Part shown: piece after piece, positions 1-5,477 of the stretch
Numbering within the stretch: position 1 is the first letter of the stretch
Layout of the letters: each line of letters starts with the position of its first letter
NCBI GenBank assembly: GCA_008501785.1
Contig: QQUD01001120.1
Location: forward strand, 1 to 5,477
Length of the DNA: 5,477 nt
Origin: Chloroflexota bacterium
GTDB lineage: Bacteria > Chloroflexota > Anaerolineae > Promineifilales > Promineifilaceae
Direction: 5' to 3'
Position numbers and translations under genes: made by a program
The notes under the pieces: model-generated
What the model was told of the DNA's origin: nothing
What the model saw: only the letters and a program-made list of their open reading frames with translations
The model's database searches: none

Positions 1-3000
1 TTTCGTCTCGATACGTGATATGTCGGTCAAATCCTGAATTTGCTGCCCCATGCGTCTGATATTGGCAGCAATGGTCTCCATAAAATTGAGCTGTTGTTCA
101 TTTAGCTCACCAGTCATGCCAGAGAGTAACAAATCGACATAGCCGCGTATCGCGGTCATTGGCGTCTTTAATTCATGTGACACCATCGACACAAATTCTG
201 ATTTGGCCTGATTGGCTTCGTTGACTTTTTCGATGAGGATGGCATTGTCAATGGCAACAGCCGCGTGATTAGCGACGCGAACGGCCGTTTCCACATCATG
301 CGGATCAAATGCGACTAGCTTATCCCGCTCTACCGCAATCACCCCAATTACCTGCTGCTTGCTGACAAATGGCAGTGTCATCTGCGAAAGCGTGGAGAAG
401 TTGGAGACAACATACTCGTCTTCTTGATGAACATTGCCAGTAATGTGTGGCTTGCCGGTGCGAATGACTTTGCCTACTAAACCACTCATCAGCAAACCAG
501 GGTCTTGCGCGACTCTCACTTCAAAATCTTCGTCGTAGTTTGAGGTTTCGAAGAAATACGGCCGTTTTTCATCATCTAGCAGCACAATCGCCCCCGCCGT
601 GCCCTTACAAATGCCCAACATCCGCGTCAACGTCAAGTTTAAGACACGTCCCACATCCAATAATGTGTTATTCAAATCCAGATCAAGCTGCTGCAGCAGC
701 GACAATTCATCCACACTTTTGCGCAGCGCAATATCTGTCTGCGTAATCAAACGCGCATTTTCAATGGCCACGACAGCTTGTCCAGCAAACGCCATCAGTA
801 AGCTCTGGTCTTCTTCACGAAATGGTGATCTGTCCCGCTTGTTAATCACCTGCAAAACACCCAGCACCTGATTCAGTCGAATCAGTGGAATCGTTAAAAT
901 GGTCTGGGTTGTATATTCAGATTTAGCATCGACATCAGAAAACCAGCGCGGATCGTTTTGCACATTATTGACAATCACAGGGCGTCCAGTCTGTGCGGCC
1001 GTTCCCGCTAACCCCTTGCCAATTGGCAGACGGTTCCCCAGCAGTTCATCGCTGGCAGGACCGCGCACTACCCGAAATTCCAGTTCACCCGTGTCGGGTA
1101 TCGTCAGCATAAAGGTGCCAGCTTCAGTATCGAGCAGTTCCATCCCTTTATCAAGAATCAGCTCCAGCAGCGGCTCCAGTTCCAAGGTTGACGCCAACAT
1201 GGGCGTCACCTGGTTCATAATTTCCATCTGCTGAGCGCGTTTGGTCAGCGATTGGCCAGACTGGAGGCGCTCGAGGGCAACGGCCGTTCTGTCGGCAAAC
1301 ACCCCAAACAACTGCTGCTGTCGGGGTCGCAGCGACCGTATCGGATCACGGTAGAATGTGTAGATAGCTCCTAATGTTTCGCGCCCTGAGTTGAGCGGGG
1401 CGGCGAAGTGAAAACGGCCGTTTTCTTCCCCCTGCCATGCTTTACTTTGCCCCGTTTCCACAACTTTTAAAACATGTGCATTCGTCTCGATCTGGTGGCG
1501 ACCTTCTGCCACAGACAACCGTTCACATTTTTCTACATGAAACGCTTTGTAAACATAATCCAACTCTTTATCGCGTAACACCACAAAGAAATCTTCAATT
1601 TCTATAAGCCGCTCAAAATTTGTAAACACCAATTCCAGCAAATCATCAAATTCAACCGTAAAACTAAGGAACTGTGAAAAATGGGTGAGCAAGTCTAACT
1701 CAGCCACCCGATTTTCCAGCCGACGCACCACATTCGCACGCTCCATGCCCAGCAACGTTTGTTCAGCCAATGAACTCAGATAGTTGAGTTGATTGCTCTC
1801 GATTTTGGCAGAGGTTGATTTCGGTGCGAGTGTTACCCAGCCCAACAAATCTTTGCCATTGCTCATTGGTACAATGGCTTTTGCTGCAAGTGATTGAACT
1901 GTTTCTTTGTATTGCAACAATGTATCAGGCCATGCACGTTCTTCTGCCAAATCAATCGCGCCATCTTGCTGCCGCATAAATGCCACGAGAGGGGATGATG
2001 TATTGACGACCACATCACTATGATTGGCATAGCTAGTAAAACAGCTTGTTTTGTGATCGGGCAAATAGAGTTTCGCCATTGAGTCTGGTATCCCTAATCG
2101 GATATATTTGAGCAGCACATCGGCTACCTGGTCCATGTGAACGGCCGTTGTCAATTCCCGCCGATACCCTAACAATAATTTTTCAAACGACTGTGTCTCA
2201 CTAAAAAATGCCTGGTCAATACCCCTTTGAAACCTGGAACGTACCGGATCAAATGCTGCTGCCATAATCACGAGAAAAACGGCTACAAACCACGGGTTTT
2301 CCACGACTGAGCCAAACGTAGCTGTTAAGCCAGTCACCACCAGTACCAAAATGCCAGCCAGCAGCATCGTCATTACCGAATACGCTACACTACGACGCAC
2401 GAATTTGCCCCCCGTATCCATCAAGCGATAACGGACAATGATATATCCAATAATAAAGGGGAAAATCGCTACTGGCGGGATGTAGAACGTGGGTGGCAGC
2501 CATGCGTGTTGAAATCCCAATCCGGCCGTGATAAAAAAGAGCAGCAACGGCAAAAAGGCAATAATACTGCCACCTAAAATCAAACGTGCCTGCTGCTTCA
2601 CCAATGCCGATTGCGTTCGTAATCTCCGATAAGCCATCACAAAAATGACCGTTGCCAACCCAAAGCCATTCAAAATATATGCCGCACGCCAGGGAATCGC
2701 ATACGCCCACGGGTCTGTGCCCCAATTCAACCAAAGCTCACCCCACACAGCGGCTGCTACGGCTGGTATAGGAATCAACCATCTTAACCAGGGAAAACGA
2801 TGAATTAACCGAGATTCATGGGGAAAGACAAAAGAAAGCCATGTACCAAGAGCACCCACCATAGACAAAGCAAATATCCAAACCCGAATAAATTGCTGTG
2901 CAGTTACCTGGTCAAACACGGCCCCAATCGTTAATGCACCAAATGCAGACAGCACTGCAAATACCTGGGCTTCTTCTTCTTTGGGTCGTGCTCGAAAAGC

Positions 3001-3468
3001 CCAGCCCCCAATTCCCAACATTAACAGACCAGTTAAATAAAACAACCAAAATTGATTCCACAAATCACGTTGCGAAAATTGGGTGAGCGACACAGTAACG
3101 GTTCGTTCCGTTATTTCGTATCTGGGTGGCACGCGTGAGTTGATTGGTTGACGCAGTGTAATCGCAATTTGATCGCCAACGCGATGTTCTAACAAAATTT
3201 GATGAAAAGCACGAATGGTATTCACAGCGACACCATCAACTGCAACAATTTGTTCAGGGTAAGCAATCGGGGGTGTTTGTTTTTGCCTTTCCCAATCCAA
3301 ATTACCAGTATCGCTAACAACAAGATTTGGATCGAGAAGAAATCCAGGGAAAGGAATGCGCGACCATTTGAGCGCAGACACAGGTAACATGAGAAATACT
3401 AGCCCGCTCAAGACTAGCACTCCCAATACAACACCAAAACGTATCCGGCCAATCAATTTATCCGACAC
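1..3468 (-). CDS. Membrane sensor histidine kinase, PDZ-like / 10 TM / 4 GAF / HisKA (C-terminus cut by window edge)
   Basis: The frame is open from an in-frame TAG at 3565-3567 to position 1 without a stop, giving 1156 residues from the chosen GTG at 3466-3468. Helix 1 is at about 12-35. A PDZ-like domain follows at about 70-110 (IVAVDGVAVNTIRAF, then GDQIAITLRQ). Nine further hydrophobic helices lie at about 137-157, 169-190, 194-217, 229-250, 257-283, 297-317, 329-348, 362-384 and 391-410. Arg/Lys-rich loops alternate as the positive-inside rule requires, placing the PDZ-like domain outside and the rest inside. Then come a divergent GAF-like region (about 438-576), GAF 2 (592-736), a canonical GAF 3 (746-910; LPIGKGLAGTAAQTGRPVIV), GAF 4 (923-1078) and HisKA (1083-1156). 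The H-box MVSHELKTPMTAIRGY places the phospho-acceptor at His1098 (bases 175-177). Known family role: autophosphorylation on this His and transfer to a response regulator. The ligands are unknown, and I see no obvious bilin Cys. The HATPase domain should continue past the window. No ATG lies upstream of residue 22, so the start is uncertain; TTG at 3454-3456 and TTG at 3508-3510 are alternatives, and none has a convincing ribosome binding site. Confidence 0.93.
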   Translation of the reverse strand, partial: MSDKLIGRIRFGVVLGVLVLSGLVFLMLPVSALKWSRIPFPGFLLDPNLVVSDTGNLDWERQKQTPPIAYPEQIVAVDGVAVNTIRAFHQILLEHRVGDQIAITLRQPINSRVPPRYEITERTVTVSLTQFSQRDLWNQFWLFYLTGLLMLGIGGWAFRARPKEEEAQVFAVLSAFGALTIGAVFDQVTAQQFIRVWIFALSMVGALGTWLSFVFPHESRLIHRFPWLRWLIPIPAVAAAVWGELWLNWGTDPWAYAIPWRAAYILNGFGLATVIFVMAYRRLRTQSALVKQQARLILGGSIIAFLPLLLFFITAGLGFQHAWLPPTFYIPPVAIFPFIIGYIIVRYRLMDTGGKFVRRSVAYSVMTMLLAGILVLVVTGLTATFGSVVENPWFVAVFLVIMAAAFDPVRSRFQRGIDQAFFSETQSFEKLLLGYRRELTTAVHMDQVADVLLKYIRLGIPDSMAKLYLPDHKTSCFTSYANHSDVVVNTSSPLVAFMRQQDGAIDLAEERAWPDTLLQYKETVQSLAAKAIVPMSNGKDLLGWVTLAPKSTSAKIESNQLNYLSSLAEQTLLGMERANVVRRLENRVAELDLLTHFSQFLSFTVEFDDLLELVFTNFERLIEIEDFFVVLRDKELDYVYKAFHVEKCERLSVAEGRHQIETNAHVLKVVETGQSKAWQGEENGRFHFAAPLNSGRETLGAIYTFYRDPIRSLRPRQQQLFGVFADRTAVALERLQSGQSLTKRAQQMEIMNQVTPMLASTLELEPLLELILDKGMELLDTEAGTFMLTIPDTGELEFRVVRGPASDELLGNRLPIGKGLAGTAAQTGRPVIVNNVQNDPRWFSDVDAKSEYTTQTILTIPLIRLNQVLGVLQVINKRDRSPFREEDQSLLMAFAGQAVVAIENARLITQTDIALRKSVDELSLLQQLDLDLNNTLLDVGRVLNLTLTRMLGICKGTAGAIVLLDDEKRPYFFETSNYDEDFEVRVAQDPGLLMSGLVGKVIRTGKPHITGNVHQEDEYVVSNFSTLSQMTLPFVSKQQVIGVIAVERDKLVAFDPHDVETAVRVANHAAVAIDNAILIEKVNEANQAKSEFVSMVSHELKTPMTAIRGYVDLLLSGMTGELNEQQLNFMETIAANIRRMGQQIQDLTDISRIETK
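1410..1425. repeat. 16-base perfect palindrome containing the iterated octamer
   Basis: GAAAACGGCCGTTTTC equals its own reverse complement over 16 bases. It is the longest perfect extension of the dispersed ACGGCCGT motif in the window. It lies in the second GAF domain of the kinase, where it encodes E-N-G-R-F-H in a loop-like stretch. This is the only copy read in the Gly-Arg phase. Confidence 0.8.
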
Positions 3469-3493
3469 AGAAATTTCGATTTCCAGGCAAACT

Positions 3494-3543
3494 AGTGTTC
3501 CGACAAACAAATATTGACTAATACCACACGGACTCGGAACACT
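3494..3543. repeat. Perfect 10-base inverted repeat upstream of the kinase gene
   Basis: AGTGTTCCGA at 3494-3503 is matched exactly by its reverse complement TCGGAACACT at 3534-3543, with a 30-base spacer. The pair lies 26 to 75 bases upstream of the chosen GTG start of the kinase, inside its presumed promoter or mRNA leader. It could be a two-site operator or a leader stem-loop. If the upstream TTG at 3508-3510 were the true start, that codon would sit in the loop. The repeat is directly visible; its function is unknown. Confidence 0.45.
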
Positions 3544-3577
3544 TAAGCTGAAGCAATTTGCGAACTAACTATCTGGC

Positions 3578-3615
3578 AAAAAATGTTAGCTTCAGTACTA
3601 ATAGCTACAGTTAAC
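3578..3615 (-). terminator. Weak terminator-like hairpin with T-run after the glycosyltransferase-like gene
   Basis: Read on the minus strand, 3615 to 3585 starts GTTAACTGTAG and ends CTGAAGCTAAC. It can fold into an imperfect stem with two single mismatches and one G-U pair around a 9-base loop. A six-T run follows at 3583-3578. The site is about 80 bases past the stop codon at 3695. The stem is AT-rich and an alternative 5-base TAGCT/AGCTA pairing competes with it, so as an intrinsic terminator it would be poor. Position and T-run are the main support. Confidence 0.25.
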
Positions 3616-3694
3616 AAGTACGTATCTTATAAATTAGACACAATTTTGCTTGAAGTTGTCACTTTACTGATTTACGGCCTGAATATTAACTGTT

Positions 3695-5477
3695 TTACGG
3701 AAACGGCCGTATTCTAATACTAGCCAATAATAAGTGATTATTCAGGTTGTGTCCATCCTCATCTAAAAGTGGTTCACCCTGTTTGGTGTCATTATTGAAT
3801 AATCTTAGCTCAATCTGATAACTGCCTGGCTCGAGATCATCAGGAATAGCCATTAATTGCGAGTCAGTCACAATTTGTCCCTGCACCCATTCGGTTGTTG
3901 GCATCTCATTATTCTGAGGGCGACCTTTCTTACTCACAACCTGAACACCCATTTCATCCCGCAAGATAAATTGAATCTTGTAATCGCCTGGCGCATCTTG
4001 CAATGCTTGCCAGGTGGTATTTATCTGTAACGCTTCGCCCGGATAAAGGGCACGCTGCCCATACTCGTATCCGAGAAATTGGGCGATGCCCGCAAAATTA
4101 TGCGACTGTGGATTAGGGTATTGTAGGCCAAATTCTGTACTTGGCGTGGGTGCCAATGCAACCTCACTGAGTTTCAGAGCATCGCCAATTGGGCTGCCTG
4201 CTGCATCTGTGATCAACAAACGGTAAGCATTTCTTGCATATAAACCAATACTCAACGTAGCAGTTGCAGGCGCGTATGTTGTATCGGGCAGCCACAGCCG
4301 AATCGAATCGACAAATCGATCACCAGCCTGCCAAGTGCTGCTAGGAAATCGTCCTAAACCAGGATGTGTATCGCGCTGTGCCACCATGACGCCTGTTTCG
4401 TTATCGATCAGATGCACAAACATGAGGAAATCGCCGGGAGGTGGCTCAAGCACCTCCCAATACAAATCGATGTCGAGTGGCCCACCAGCTAAAAGAGACG
4501 TTTCACGCACCTCGTATCCACGCAGCATGACAAAGCTGTCAAATTGTGCGTCAGTGGGATTAGGAACGGCCGTTTCCGCTTCAAACGCCTCCGGCCTCCC
4601 ATACGCAGGGGCCAAATACCCCCACAATGCCACAATGGTGAGGATTGCCATGCCAAGGTTGGTGAGAATGGCAAGGAGTGAGATTGAAGATTGGAGATTA
4701 GGAGATTTTTGTCTTTGGGGGATGAGGGTGAGCCAACGGCTGAGGCCATAAAAGGCCAGGATGGAAAGGGATGAGAGCGCCGGATAAAAAAAGCGTCCCA
4801 TCGCGCCAGCCGGACTGATCAATAAATAGTAGAAGACAACGACAAAGCCAAGCACGGCATTTAAAATCAAAACCAGCAGCGGCATACCAATTTGCTTCAT
4901 TTCATCCTGGCGACGCAGCACAACTGGAACCAGCAGTCCAAGTAAACCAATGCCTATCACCCACATCAGGCCAATGTAAATGCCTTCTGGCAGCGGAATT
5001 TGCCCATACCCAAACCGTCCCCACAAGCTGGTCCAGGTTGGTTTCAGTTCGTAAAATGCCAATCCCCAGCTTTCGGATGGATCGCGTACCCCCCACATTT
5101 CTGTCAAACGCTGCACGCCAGTGGGTTCACCGTACAAAATCATATTGCGCACAAACCACCAACCAGAGAGCAACAGTGTCACAAGGCCCGCAATGACGCC
5201 GACTTCGAACCATTGTCGCCACTGCTTGCGCCGCCACGCCACCCAGGTGGCCGCTGCGCCAATCGTGCCACCTAATGCCAACAGGTTAAATTTACTTAAC
5301 AACGCGATGCCGTACAGCAGTCCCATCACAACGCCCCAGCGACGACTGAGGCCATTTTTGTCTTTGACCAGGCGCACGCAGGCCAGGGCAACGGCCGTTC
5401 CGCTCAACGCCGCAAGCACATCATTATTAATCGCTCCCGCCATGTCAACAAACATGGGATTGAATGCCAAAAATGCG
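3695..5477 (-). CDS. Polytopic membrane glycosyltransferase-like protein (GT39/DUF2142 type) with two C-terminal beta domains; N-terminus cut by window edge
   Basis: The frame is open to the window edge. TTG at 5468-5470 could be read as a start, but coding-like sequence (A-F-L-A-F-N-P) continues upstream and the true start lies outside. Numbered from that TTG, the stop follows residue 591. Hydrophobic segments are at about 15-33, 45-60, 61-78, 89-108, 164-186, 195-218, 230-250 and 264-286. Positive loops (VKDKNGLSRRW, RRKQWRQW, RRQDEMKQ, PQRQK) alternate, so the tail is extracytoplasmic. FNPMFVDMAGAINNDVLAAL near the start and GRFFYPAL at 226 to 233 resemble conserved loop motifs of DUF2142/GT-C proteins. 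In those families such proteins move sugars from lipid-linked donors on the outer face of the membrane. The usual first-loop acidic catalytic motif would be off-window, so activity cannot be judged. Residues 312-440 and 460-588 are two related beta-rich domains (LRGYEV/FLGYEY; DIDLYWE/QINTTWQ; PPGDF/APGDY). The substrate and the exact family remain uncertain; membrane topology is well supported. Confidence 0.85.
   Translation of the reverse strand, partial: AFLAFNPMFVDMAGAINNDVLAALSGTAVALACVRLVKDKNGLSRRWGVVMGLLYGIALLSKFNLLALGGTIGAAATWVAWRRKQWRQWFEVGVIAGLVTLLLSGWWFVRNMILYGEPTGVQRLTEMWGVRDPSESWGLAFYELKPTWTSLWGRFGYGQIPLPEGIYIGLMWVIGIGLLGLLVPVVLRRQDEMKQIGMPLLVLILNAVLGFVVVFYYLLISPAGAMGRFFYPALSSLSILAFYGLSRWLTLIPQRQKSPNLQSSISLLAILTNLGMAILTIVALWGYLAPAYGRPEAFEAETAVPNPTDAQFDSFVMLRGYEVRETSLLAGGPLDIDLYWEVLEPPPGDFLMFVHLIDNETGVMVAQRDTHPGLGRFPSSTWQAGDRFVDSIRLWLPDTTYAPATATLSIGLYARNAYRLLITDAAGSPIGDALKLSEVALAPTPSTEFGLQYPNPQSHNFAGIAQFLGYEYGQRALYPGEALQINTTWQALQDAPGDYKIQFILRDEMGVQVVSKKGRPQNNEMPTTEWVQGQIVTDSQLMAIPDDLEPGSYQIELRLFNNDTKQGEPLLDEDGHNLNNHLLLASIRIRPFP
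4679..4707. repeat. Imperfect tandem 7-base repeat (GRAGATT-like), four units, inside a coding region
   Basis: On the plus strand the units TGAGATT, GAAGATT, GGAGATT and AGGAGATT follow each other directly, each ending in AGATT. They fall in the glycosyltransferase-like gene at about residues 255-264, in the short cytoplasmic loop and the start of the last membrane segment (K-S-P-N-L-Q-S-S-I-S). Three units are 7 bases and the last is 8, so the repeat does not keep the codon frame. It looks like a low-complexity expansion tolerated in a loop. Confidence 0.5.

Follow-up and report, generated by a model that had tools for sequence, protein, structure and literature searches.

The locus described here raises the question of what keeps one short palindrome, ACGGCCGT, so frequent in coding DNA. 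The window, that is, the whole stretch of the Chloroflexota contig QQUD01001120.1 that was analyzed (5,477 bases, 48% GC), contains exactly eight copies by direct count, whereas 200 dinucleotide shuffles of it gave a mean of 0.04 copies and a maximum of 1, none of the 200 reaching eight. The commonest 8-mers of the window are ACGGCCGT and the overlapping CGGCCGTT, with eight copies each; the runner-up palindrome, CCAATTGG, has two, and a longer form, AACGGCCGTT, is present at six of the eight sites. A previous sequence-only reading had described eight copies, far above chance, distributed over both genes and read in all three codon phases (five Thr-Ala-Val, two Arg-Pro and one Gly-Arg), and all of these points stood. 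Moreover, it had likened the word to HIP1, the highly iterated palindrome (HIP) of cyanobacteria, and the genome counts, the codon-usage test and the synonymous conservation presented below bear this comparison out: ACGGCCGT is a real, genome-wide and order-specific HIP. With about even confidence, we regard it as the HIP of this lineage, with the core CGGCCG, held by a force acting on DNA, namely direct selection on the site of a symmetric protein.

Genome-wide abundance and distribution of the palindrome

The genome-wide figures were obtained from genomes of relatives, not from the window's own genome. The close relative G001 (Chloroflexi metagenome-assembled genome Go_SlAct_bin_68) was counted over its full 6.0 Mb and analyzed in detail in a sample of 330,645 bases. 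The full count gave 12,611 copies of ACGGCCGT and 237 of the reversed control word; at one G001 locus (L001), 34 copies were found in 15,390 bases, with at most one at the other loci among the 80 GTDB matches listed. In the sample, 716 sites were observed versus 25 expected under a third-order Markov model, or about 7 when the sites were masked before model building (1,432 versus 13.9 on both strands), and the next palindrome had 10 copies. These counts, which the sequence-only reading had proposed as a check, are not near the Markov expectation and, together with the window shuffles, they reject chance or base composition as an explanation. As is typical of the HIP class, ACGGCCGT is the most overrepresented GC-rich palindrome of G001 (716 versus 7 to 25), and its genome-wide density, 991-2,102 per Mb in 18 genomes, lies within the 500-2,500 per Mb of that class. 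The sites are spaced close to randomly, with a coefficient of variation (CV) of 1.03 and a largest gap of 2,766 bases in the sampled G001 stretches; regular spacing was therefore rejected.

At least 400 copies per Mb were found in 20 of 396 genomes sampled from the class, the next-ranked genome having 179, and all 20 as well as the next-ranked one belong to the single order of G001 (56 genomes), probably the GTDB order Promineifilales. In many genomes of the order the word recurs about once per 500 to 1,000 letters. In an rpoB tree of 28 chosen sequences, the 22 HIP-labelled ones formed one clade with a support of 100/100; the HIP set includes the weak case G036, and the six others include the order members G225 and G273, which have a slight CGGCCG excess. 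The tree was built without G001 and G379 (no rpoB match) and without the word-lacking order members G308, G336, G401 and G402. Separately, units of about 51 bases are repeated in tandem in a stretch of G001 contig C12 that has no called gene (L093:5382-6677), and many of these units carry one ACGGCCGT.

Maintenance of the sites at the DNA level

In the G001 sample, the density of sites was 2,099 per Mb in coding and 2,646 per Mb in noncoding DNA, where genes were called by a simple rule of the longest open reading frame and some noncoding sites lie within the tandem array. The coding sites in phases 0, 1 and 2 numbered 344, 173 and 97, which is 5.9, 18.3 and 34.9 times the codon-usage expectation; confinement to Thr-Ala-Val codons at the frequency predicted from codon usage was thus not found. 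Thr-Ala-Val is the most enriched tripeptide in the sample (350 versus 46 expected), the scrambled tripeptides TVA and ATV occurring 24 and 28 times, and the palindrome spells 344 of the 350 (58.6 expected). Since the tripeptide itself is in excess and nearly all of it is spelled by the site, the Thr-Ala-Val bias looks like a consequence of the site and not its cause.

The orthologues of the kinase provided the synonymous-site comparison. Among those below 62% nucleotide identity, the 8-mer was kept in 98.3% of 871 conserved Thr-Ala-Val cells versus 21.4% of control triples of fourfold codons (n = 5,480), the cells not being independent because genome pairs overlap. At about 60% identity, retention of kinase sites was 41.6% (n = 2,074 cases) versus 4.0% for GC-rich control 8-mers. 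The codon-usage test, the noncoding density and this conservation agree with the earlier contention that no peptide motif accounts for the copies, and we consider DNA-level maintenance of the sites established.

In the window, the GAF-domain sensor histidine kinase is encoded on the reverse strand at 1..3459, its C-terminus cut at the window edge (the open frame extends to 3510, and the part analyzed was 1-3459); its close homologues, where named, are from Chloroflexi/Chloroflexota, Anaerolineae, Anaerolineales or Ardenticatenaceae. Four of its five sites are common to 8 to 22 of 29 orthologues in the order, and one occurs in none. The site at 281..288 (ACG GCC GTT, Thr-Ala-Val) is found in 20 of the 29, those at 1280..1287 and 2141..2148 (both Thr-Ala-Val) in 8 and 22, and that at 1414..1421 (AAC GGC CGT, Asn-Gly-Arg) in 15, the remaining one being at 558..565 (AAA CGG CCG TAT, Lys-Arg-Pro-Tyr; 0 of 29). 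The upstream gene, also on the reverse strand (3695..5476), encodes a membrane protein whose N-terminus is cut at the window edge and which has a weak PMT_2 (mannosyltransferase-like) match under the curated cut-off. Its sites are located at 3703..3710, near its 3' end (ATA CGG CCG TTT, Ile-Arg-Pro-Phe), and at 4566..4573 and 5391..5398 (both Thr-Ala-Val).

A common core with a variable outer base pair

CGGCCG exceeds the control GCCGGC in 52 of the 56 genomes of the order, the exceptions being G401, G308, G336 and G402. Around this common core the outer pair varies by genome, giving ACGGCCGT, TCGGCCGA, GCGGCCGC or no preference; the classes were drawn from whole-genome counts plus samples of about 3 to 45 kb. 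The A..T class comprises 27 of the 56 genomes, the T..A class two (G095, with 25 of 34 CGGCCG, and G399, with 30 of 38) and the G..C class one (G182, 43 of 49). No outer preference was found in G152, G205, G282, G353 and G416, to which G417 was added by its CGGCCG excess alone, and the other 20 genomes had a weak or no excess or were sampled too little. G402, a member of the same order, iterates TGCCGGCA instead (loci L268 and L269; 12 copies in 9,955 bases versus 0.4 expected, though the sites are few). The same genome avoids CGGCCG (447 versus 7,315 GCCGGC).

Switches can be followed at individual columns. In the kinase alignment, G182 has GCGGCCGC in a column where 21 of the 24 aligned A..T genomes have ACGGCCGT, with a change of amino acids, and in the alignment of a methyltransferase gene it has GCGGCCGC where 7 of 18 have ACGGCCGT; at the other kinase sites of G182 (3 of 4), there is no matching A..T site. 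Words one base off the palindrome occur in G001, with sites masked, at 1.3-2.8 times the expectation when the deviation is at the outer position, and at 0.66 times (65 versus 99 expected) when it is in the core. Deviations are thus commonest at the outermost positions, as in other HIPs, a pattern recorded in this one genome. Outside the order, at least 11 genomes of the class have a CGGCCG/GCCGGC ratio above 2, all with fewer than 1,000 CGGCCG per Mb. In addition, the class genomes G119, G233, G258, G238, G280, G164 and G156 strongly avoid CGGCCG relative to GCCGGC (92 versus 5,312 in G119), as expected from restriction.

The C-rich flank of the sites

In G001, each strand 3' of the site is T-rich immediately and then C-rich. 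The C-G skew of this flank, here termed the halo, is 0.37 at 4-6 bp and 0.145 at 21-30 bp and does not exceed 0.033 beyond 75 bp, so that the halo reaches about 30 bp on each side. The 16 half-sites of the window itself show it (C 83 versus G 36, p = 2e-5), with an adjoining T in 14 of 16. Around CGGCCG without A..T, and likewise around three control words, G001 has no halo. G359, G399 and G402 show it clearly and G182 moderately; in G095 and the genomes that lack an outer preference it is weak. Over 15 positions, complementarity between the arms of G001 sites was not consistently in excess (z from -2.5 to 3.4), and a hairpin or terminator is therefore unsupported.

Sites confined to one or two genomes had a halo of 0.31 and widely shared sites one of 0.25, and it was absent (0.02-0.03) at the matching columns of genomes without the site. 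Mutagenic patch synthesis is unsupported as its cause, given that the halo does not grow with the age of the site, that the flanks are not clearly more diverged (see below) and that the halo persists in close relatives from which the site is missing.

Differences between related genomes

The fate of individual sites was followed in close relatives. Across 36 kb of alignment between G359 and G235, which are 84% identical, 58 sites were common and 16 unshared, none of them gapped; 12 of the 16 were one base off, 10 of these by C>T or G>A. The flanks had diverged by 0.139 where the site was shared and by 0.174 where it was not, against an average of 0.162. In a partly overlapping set of 24 genome pairs, many of which share genomes, 330 sites were shared, 95 unshared and 11 gapped; a single base made the difference in 39 cases, three or four bases in 38. 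Of the 39 single differences, 23 were C>T or G>A, versus a background of 4,404 of 6,706 (66%). Site differences among close relatives thus arise mostly by substitution in place. On these counts, insertion of a small element (0 of 16 gapped in the closest comparison, 11 gapped versus 95 unshared in the larger set) and hypermutation are without support in close relatives, and there is no sign of a deamination hot spot at 5-methylcytosine, although G359 and G235 alone gave 10 of 12. In distant kinase comparisons (about 60% identity), gaps occurred at 9.6% of sites versus 5.0% of control words, which runs counter to this result on insertion; by the same figures, the sites lie more often in variable stretches.

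Candidate partner proteins

The sequence-only reading had suggested a search for a solitary methyltransferase of CGGCCG specificity. PF00145 enzymes were absent from 9 of 21 genomes searched, which are incomplete, so that a 5-methylcytosine methyltransferase of this family was rejected as a universal partner; G205 had no PF00145 or PF01555 match, other methyltransferase families not having been searched. One conserved orphan candidate of the N6/N4 type, represented in G001 by G001:C98, is correlated with the word: it was found in 28 of 30 genomes with the strict 8-mer and in none of six relaxed genomes. In a structure comparison, its first Foldseek row was CcrM, and no CcrM chain was among the 50 rows listed by VIA-align. 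As a partner of the palindrome, this methyltransferase is weakly supported.

In G001 an orphan DPPY methyltransferase adjoins NurA and HerA genes (L182:5779-12384). NurA is also found beside the methyltransferase in G369, G215, G300, G374 and G182 and about 3.7 kb off in G389, and it was not found near it in the examined stretches of G195, G364, G379, G168 and G347. In the T..A genome G095, the methyltransferase orthologue is split over two overlapping frames, by a frameshift or a sequencing error (G095:C1:577107-579027).

What holds the sites in place

The relatives thus display a genome-wide excess, high densities in a single order of the class sample, a common core with a lineage-specific outer pair, differences mostly by substitution in place, near-absolute synonymous retention and a halo. 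In the reading that we favor, the word and its flank would together be the binding site of a symmetric DNA protein (dimeric or two-fold acting), and each copy would be kept mainly by direct selection on the protein-DNA interaction. Direct selection is suggested by the background words of the same core, which lack the halo, by the equal halo at young and old sites, and by the absence of signs of insertion or mutagenesis in the comparisons above. More tentatively, the interaction might be coupled to DNA methylation and, in line with proposals for the HIPs of cyanobacteria, label a strand or the cell's own DNA during repair, recombination or replication. It is likewise conceivable that the specificity of the binding protein dictates the outer base pair, in which case a shift in specificity would rewrite the genome. 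In our reading the halo belongs to the recognised site; alternatively, it may be a slow consequence of occupancy.

Several points weigh against direct selection on such a site. The binding protein for the word remains a predicted one, and it is difficult to imagine a single function whose selection would hold thousands of sites, even where amino acids are changed. The core depletion of one-off words (0.66) is barely under the range of six control words (0.72-1.34). In the methyltransferase gene at about 60% identity, retention was just 13.7% versus 4.9% of controls. Half-site words and some one-off words have a weak halo in G001 (e.g. C 0.36 and G 0.29 at 6-10 bp). Moreover, where a close relative has no site, the halo is still there, so that halo and site are not strictly coupled. 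As to the candidate methyltransferase, its correlation with the word comprises just one or two phylogenetically independent pairs. G134 and G412 lack it, 24 genomes of the class have it without belonging to the order, and its predicted fold is at least as similar to tRNA methyltransferases as to CcrM.

A wider version, possible but rather unlikely, is an evolvable genome code of the whole order, in which a DNA-reading system would mark the chromosome. Its outer pair, and once its core, would have changed several times, dragging thousands of sites and amino acids along, and some mobile elements would be marked more densely without the full flank.

Accumulation without function, driven by repair or mutation, we consider unlikely. 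In this model, put forward for HIP1 (Elhai 2015), a mismatch-repair or very-short-patch-like process favors the palindrome wherever a mismatch lies nearby, and the copies pile up as a by-product. It would accommodate compatible codons being filled to saturation (344 of 350 Thr-Ala-Val), the amino-acid change at the switched kinase column of G182, the near-random spacing (CV 1.03) and a density (991-2,102 per Mb in 18 genomes) that matches HIP1 (PMC4390886), but it leaves the halo unexplained. Moreover, Vsr (PF03852), the nicking enzyme that was searched for, was found in just 6 of 30 genomes, including 5 of the 24 HIP genomes, and a site generated by Vsr-type repair was accordingly rejected; the flanks are not hypermutated (0.139 and 0.174 around the average of 0.162), and the C>T or G>A changes (23 of 39) do not exceed the background.

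A tag for DNA uptake or self-recognition, whereby word-bearing DNA would be preferentially taken up, packed or spared and the word multiplied by import and recombination, appears quite improbable. Some evidence in its favor comes from mobile DNA. When IMG/VR was searched for pairs of sites separated by 30-60 bases, at least 120 stretches were returned; among the 120 listed (L343-L462), 23 viral or plasmid stretches, belonging to 17 contigs, reach both five sites and 1,500 sites per Mb, with densities of 1,600-4,200 ACGGCCGT per Mb (e.g. L355, L389 and L343). Selection by pattern inflates these densities, but 47 sites in 13 kb far exceed such inflation. Terminase, integrase, ParA, ParB or replication genes were present in five of the six HIP-rich contigs whose proteins were scanned. 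In its flank preference and density the word is also reminiscent of the uptake consensus of Haemophilus, which spans 29 bp (PMC1939737). On the other hand, the word is a perfect palindrome, whereas DNA uptake sequences are stated to be non-palindromic in the same source, and the HIP-rich viral contigs have no established host: the search with terminase and replication-protein matches established no named one, the L387 terminase being 41-43% identical to those of its eight top-scoring phages, most of which infect Proteobacteria, and the L343 replication protein having distant matches alone (28-38%) in 4 of the 56 order genomes. These contigs have a weak C-rich flank or none (14 groups, with C 0.27-0.36 and G 0.22-0.34), and the pieces examined contain no homologue of the candidate methyltransferase. 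Some of the HIP-rich viral stretches are nearly without GCCGGC.

To a nucleoid or chromosome-organising site, at which an abundant structural protein would bind the word and its flanks, we assign a similarly low probability. Coding and noncoding DNA are alike in density (2,099 and 2,646 per Mb), the largest gap in the sampled stretches is 2,766 bases and the halo spans some 30 bp per side, as such a site would allow; against this, the spacing is not regular, no candidate protein is at hand, and thousands of individually selected sites would be required. Finally, a protein motif or codon-usage effect, in line with the five of eight window sites that read Thr-Ala-Val, has next to no probability and was rejected by the excess in all phases (5.9, 18.3 and 34.9 times expectation), the tripeptide test with its scrambled controls (24 and 28), a noncoding density at least equal to the coding one, and the synonymous retention.

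Comparison with known systems and significance

EagI-type restriction-modification has the specificity CGGCCG. The hexamer is identical to the core described here and several class genomes, such as G119, avoid it; unlike a restriction-modification site, however, the word is in extreme excess here. As described in PMC4390886, the cyanobacterial HIPs comprise HIP1 (GCGATCGC) and the alternates TCGATCGA, GGGATCCC, GGCGCC, GCsGC and rCCGGy; the window contains no copy of GCGATCGC. According to the same source (section 2.6 for the one-off words), they share with the Chloroflexota word a perfect GC-rich palindrome at about 1,000-2,000 per Mb, a 6-base core with variable outer bases and palindromic extensions in some genomes, the substitution of one HIP for another in related genomes, and an excess of one-off words at outer positions. 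The differences are the phylum and the core, CGGCCG, the C-rich halo decaying over about 30 bp, and the cognate methyltransferase, of which none was found throughout the genomes (9 of 21 without PF00145, and G205 without a PF00145 or PF01555 match). The DUS/USS uptake sequences of Neisseriaceae and Pasteurellaceae, as described in PMC1939737, are likewise dense short words with a degenerate extended flank; unlike them, the word in Chloroflexota is palindromic. In Synechocystis, an N4-cytosine enzyme for GGCC is reported to affect replication and repair (PMC6560206).

HIP1 was described in 1995 and its purpose has been open since; the sources consulted on such words deal with cyanobacteria. A literature search in open-licence papers turned up no description of a word of this kind for Chloroflexota. 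The palindrome is a second case, outside cyanobacteria, of this thirty-year-old puzzle, although of a kind already known from cyanobacteria. An order-wide case in another phylum, with word switches, losses and a flank signature, makes comparative tests possible, and the comparative question that it opens is which gene changes whenever the outer pair changes. Moreover, it represents a pressure at the DNA level strong enough to reshape the proteome, as seen in the 350 Thr-Ala-Val versus 46 expected in the G001 sample.

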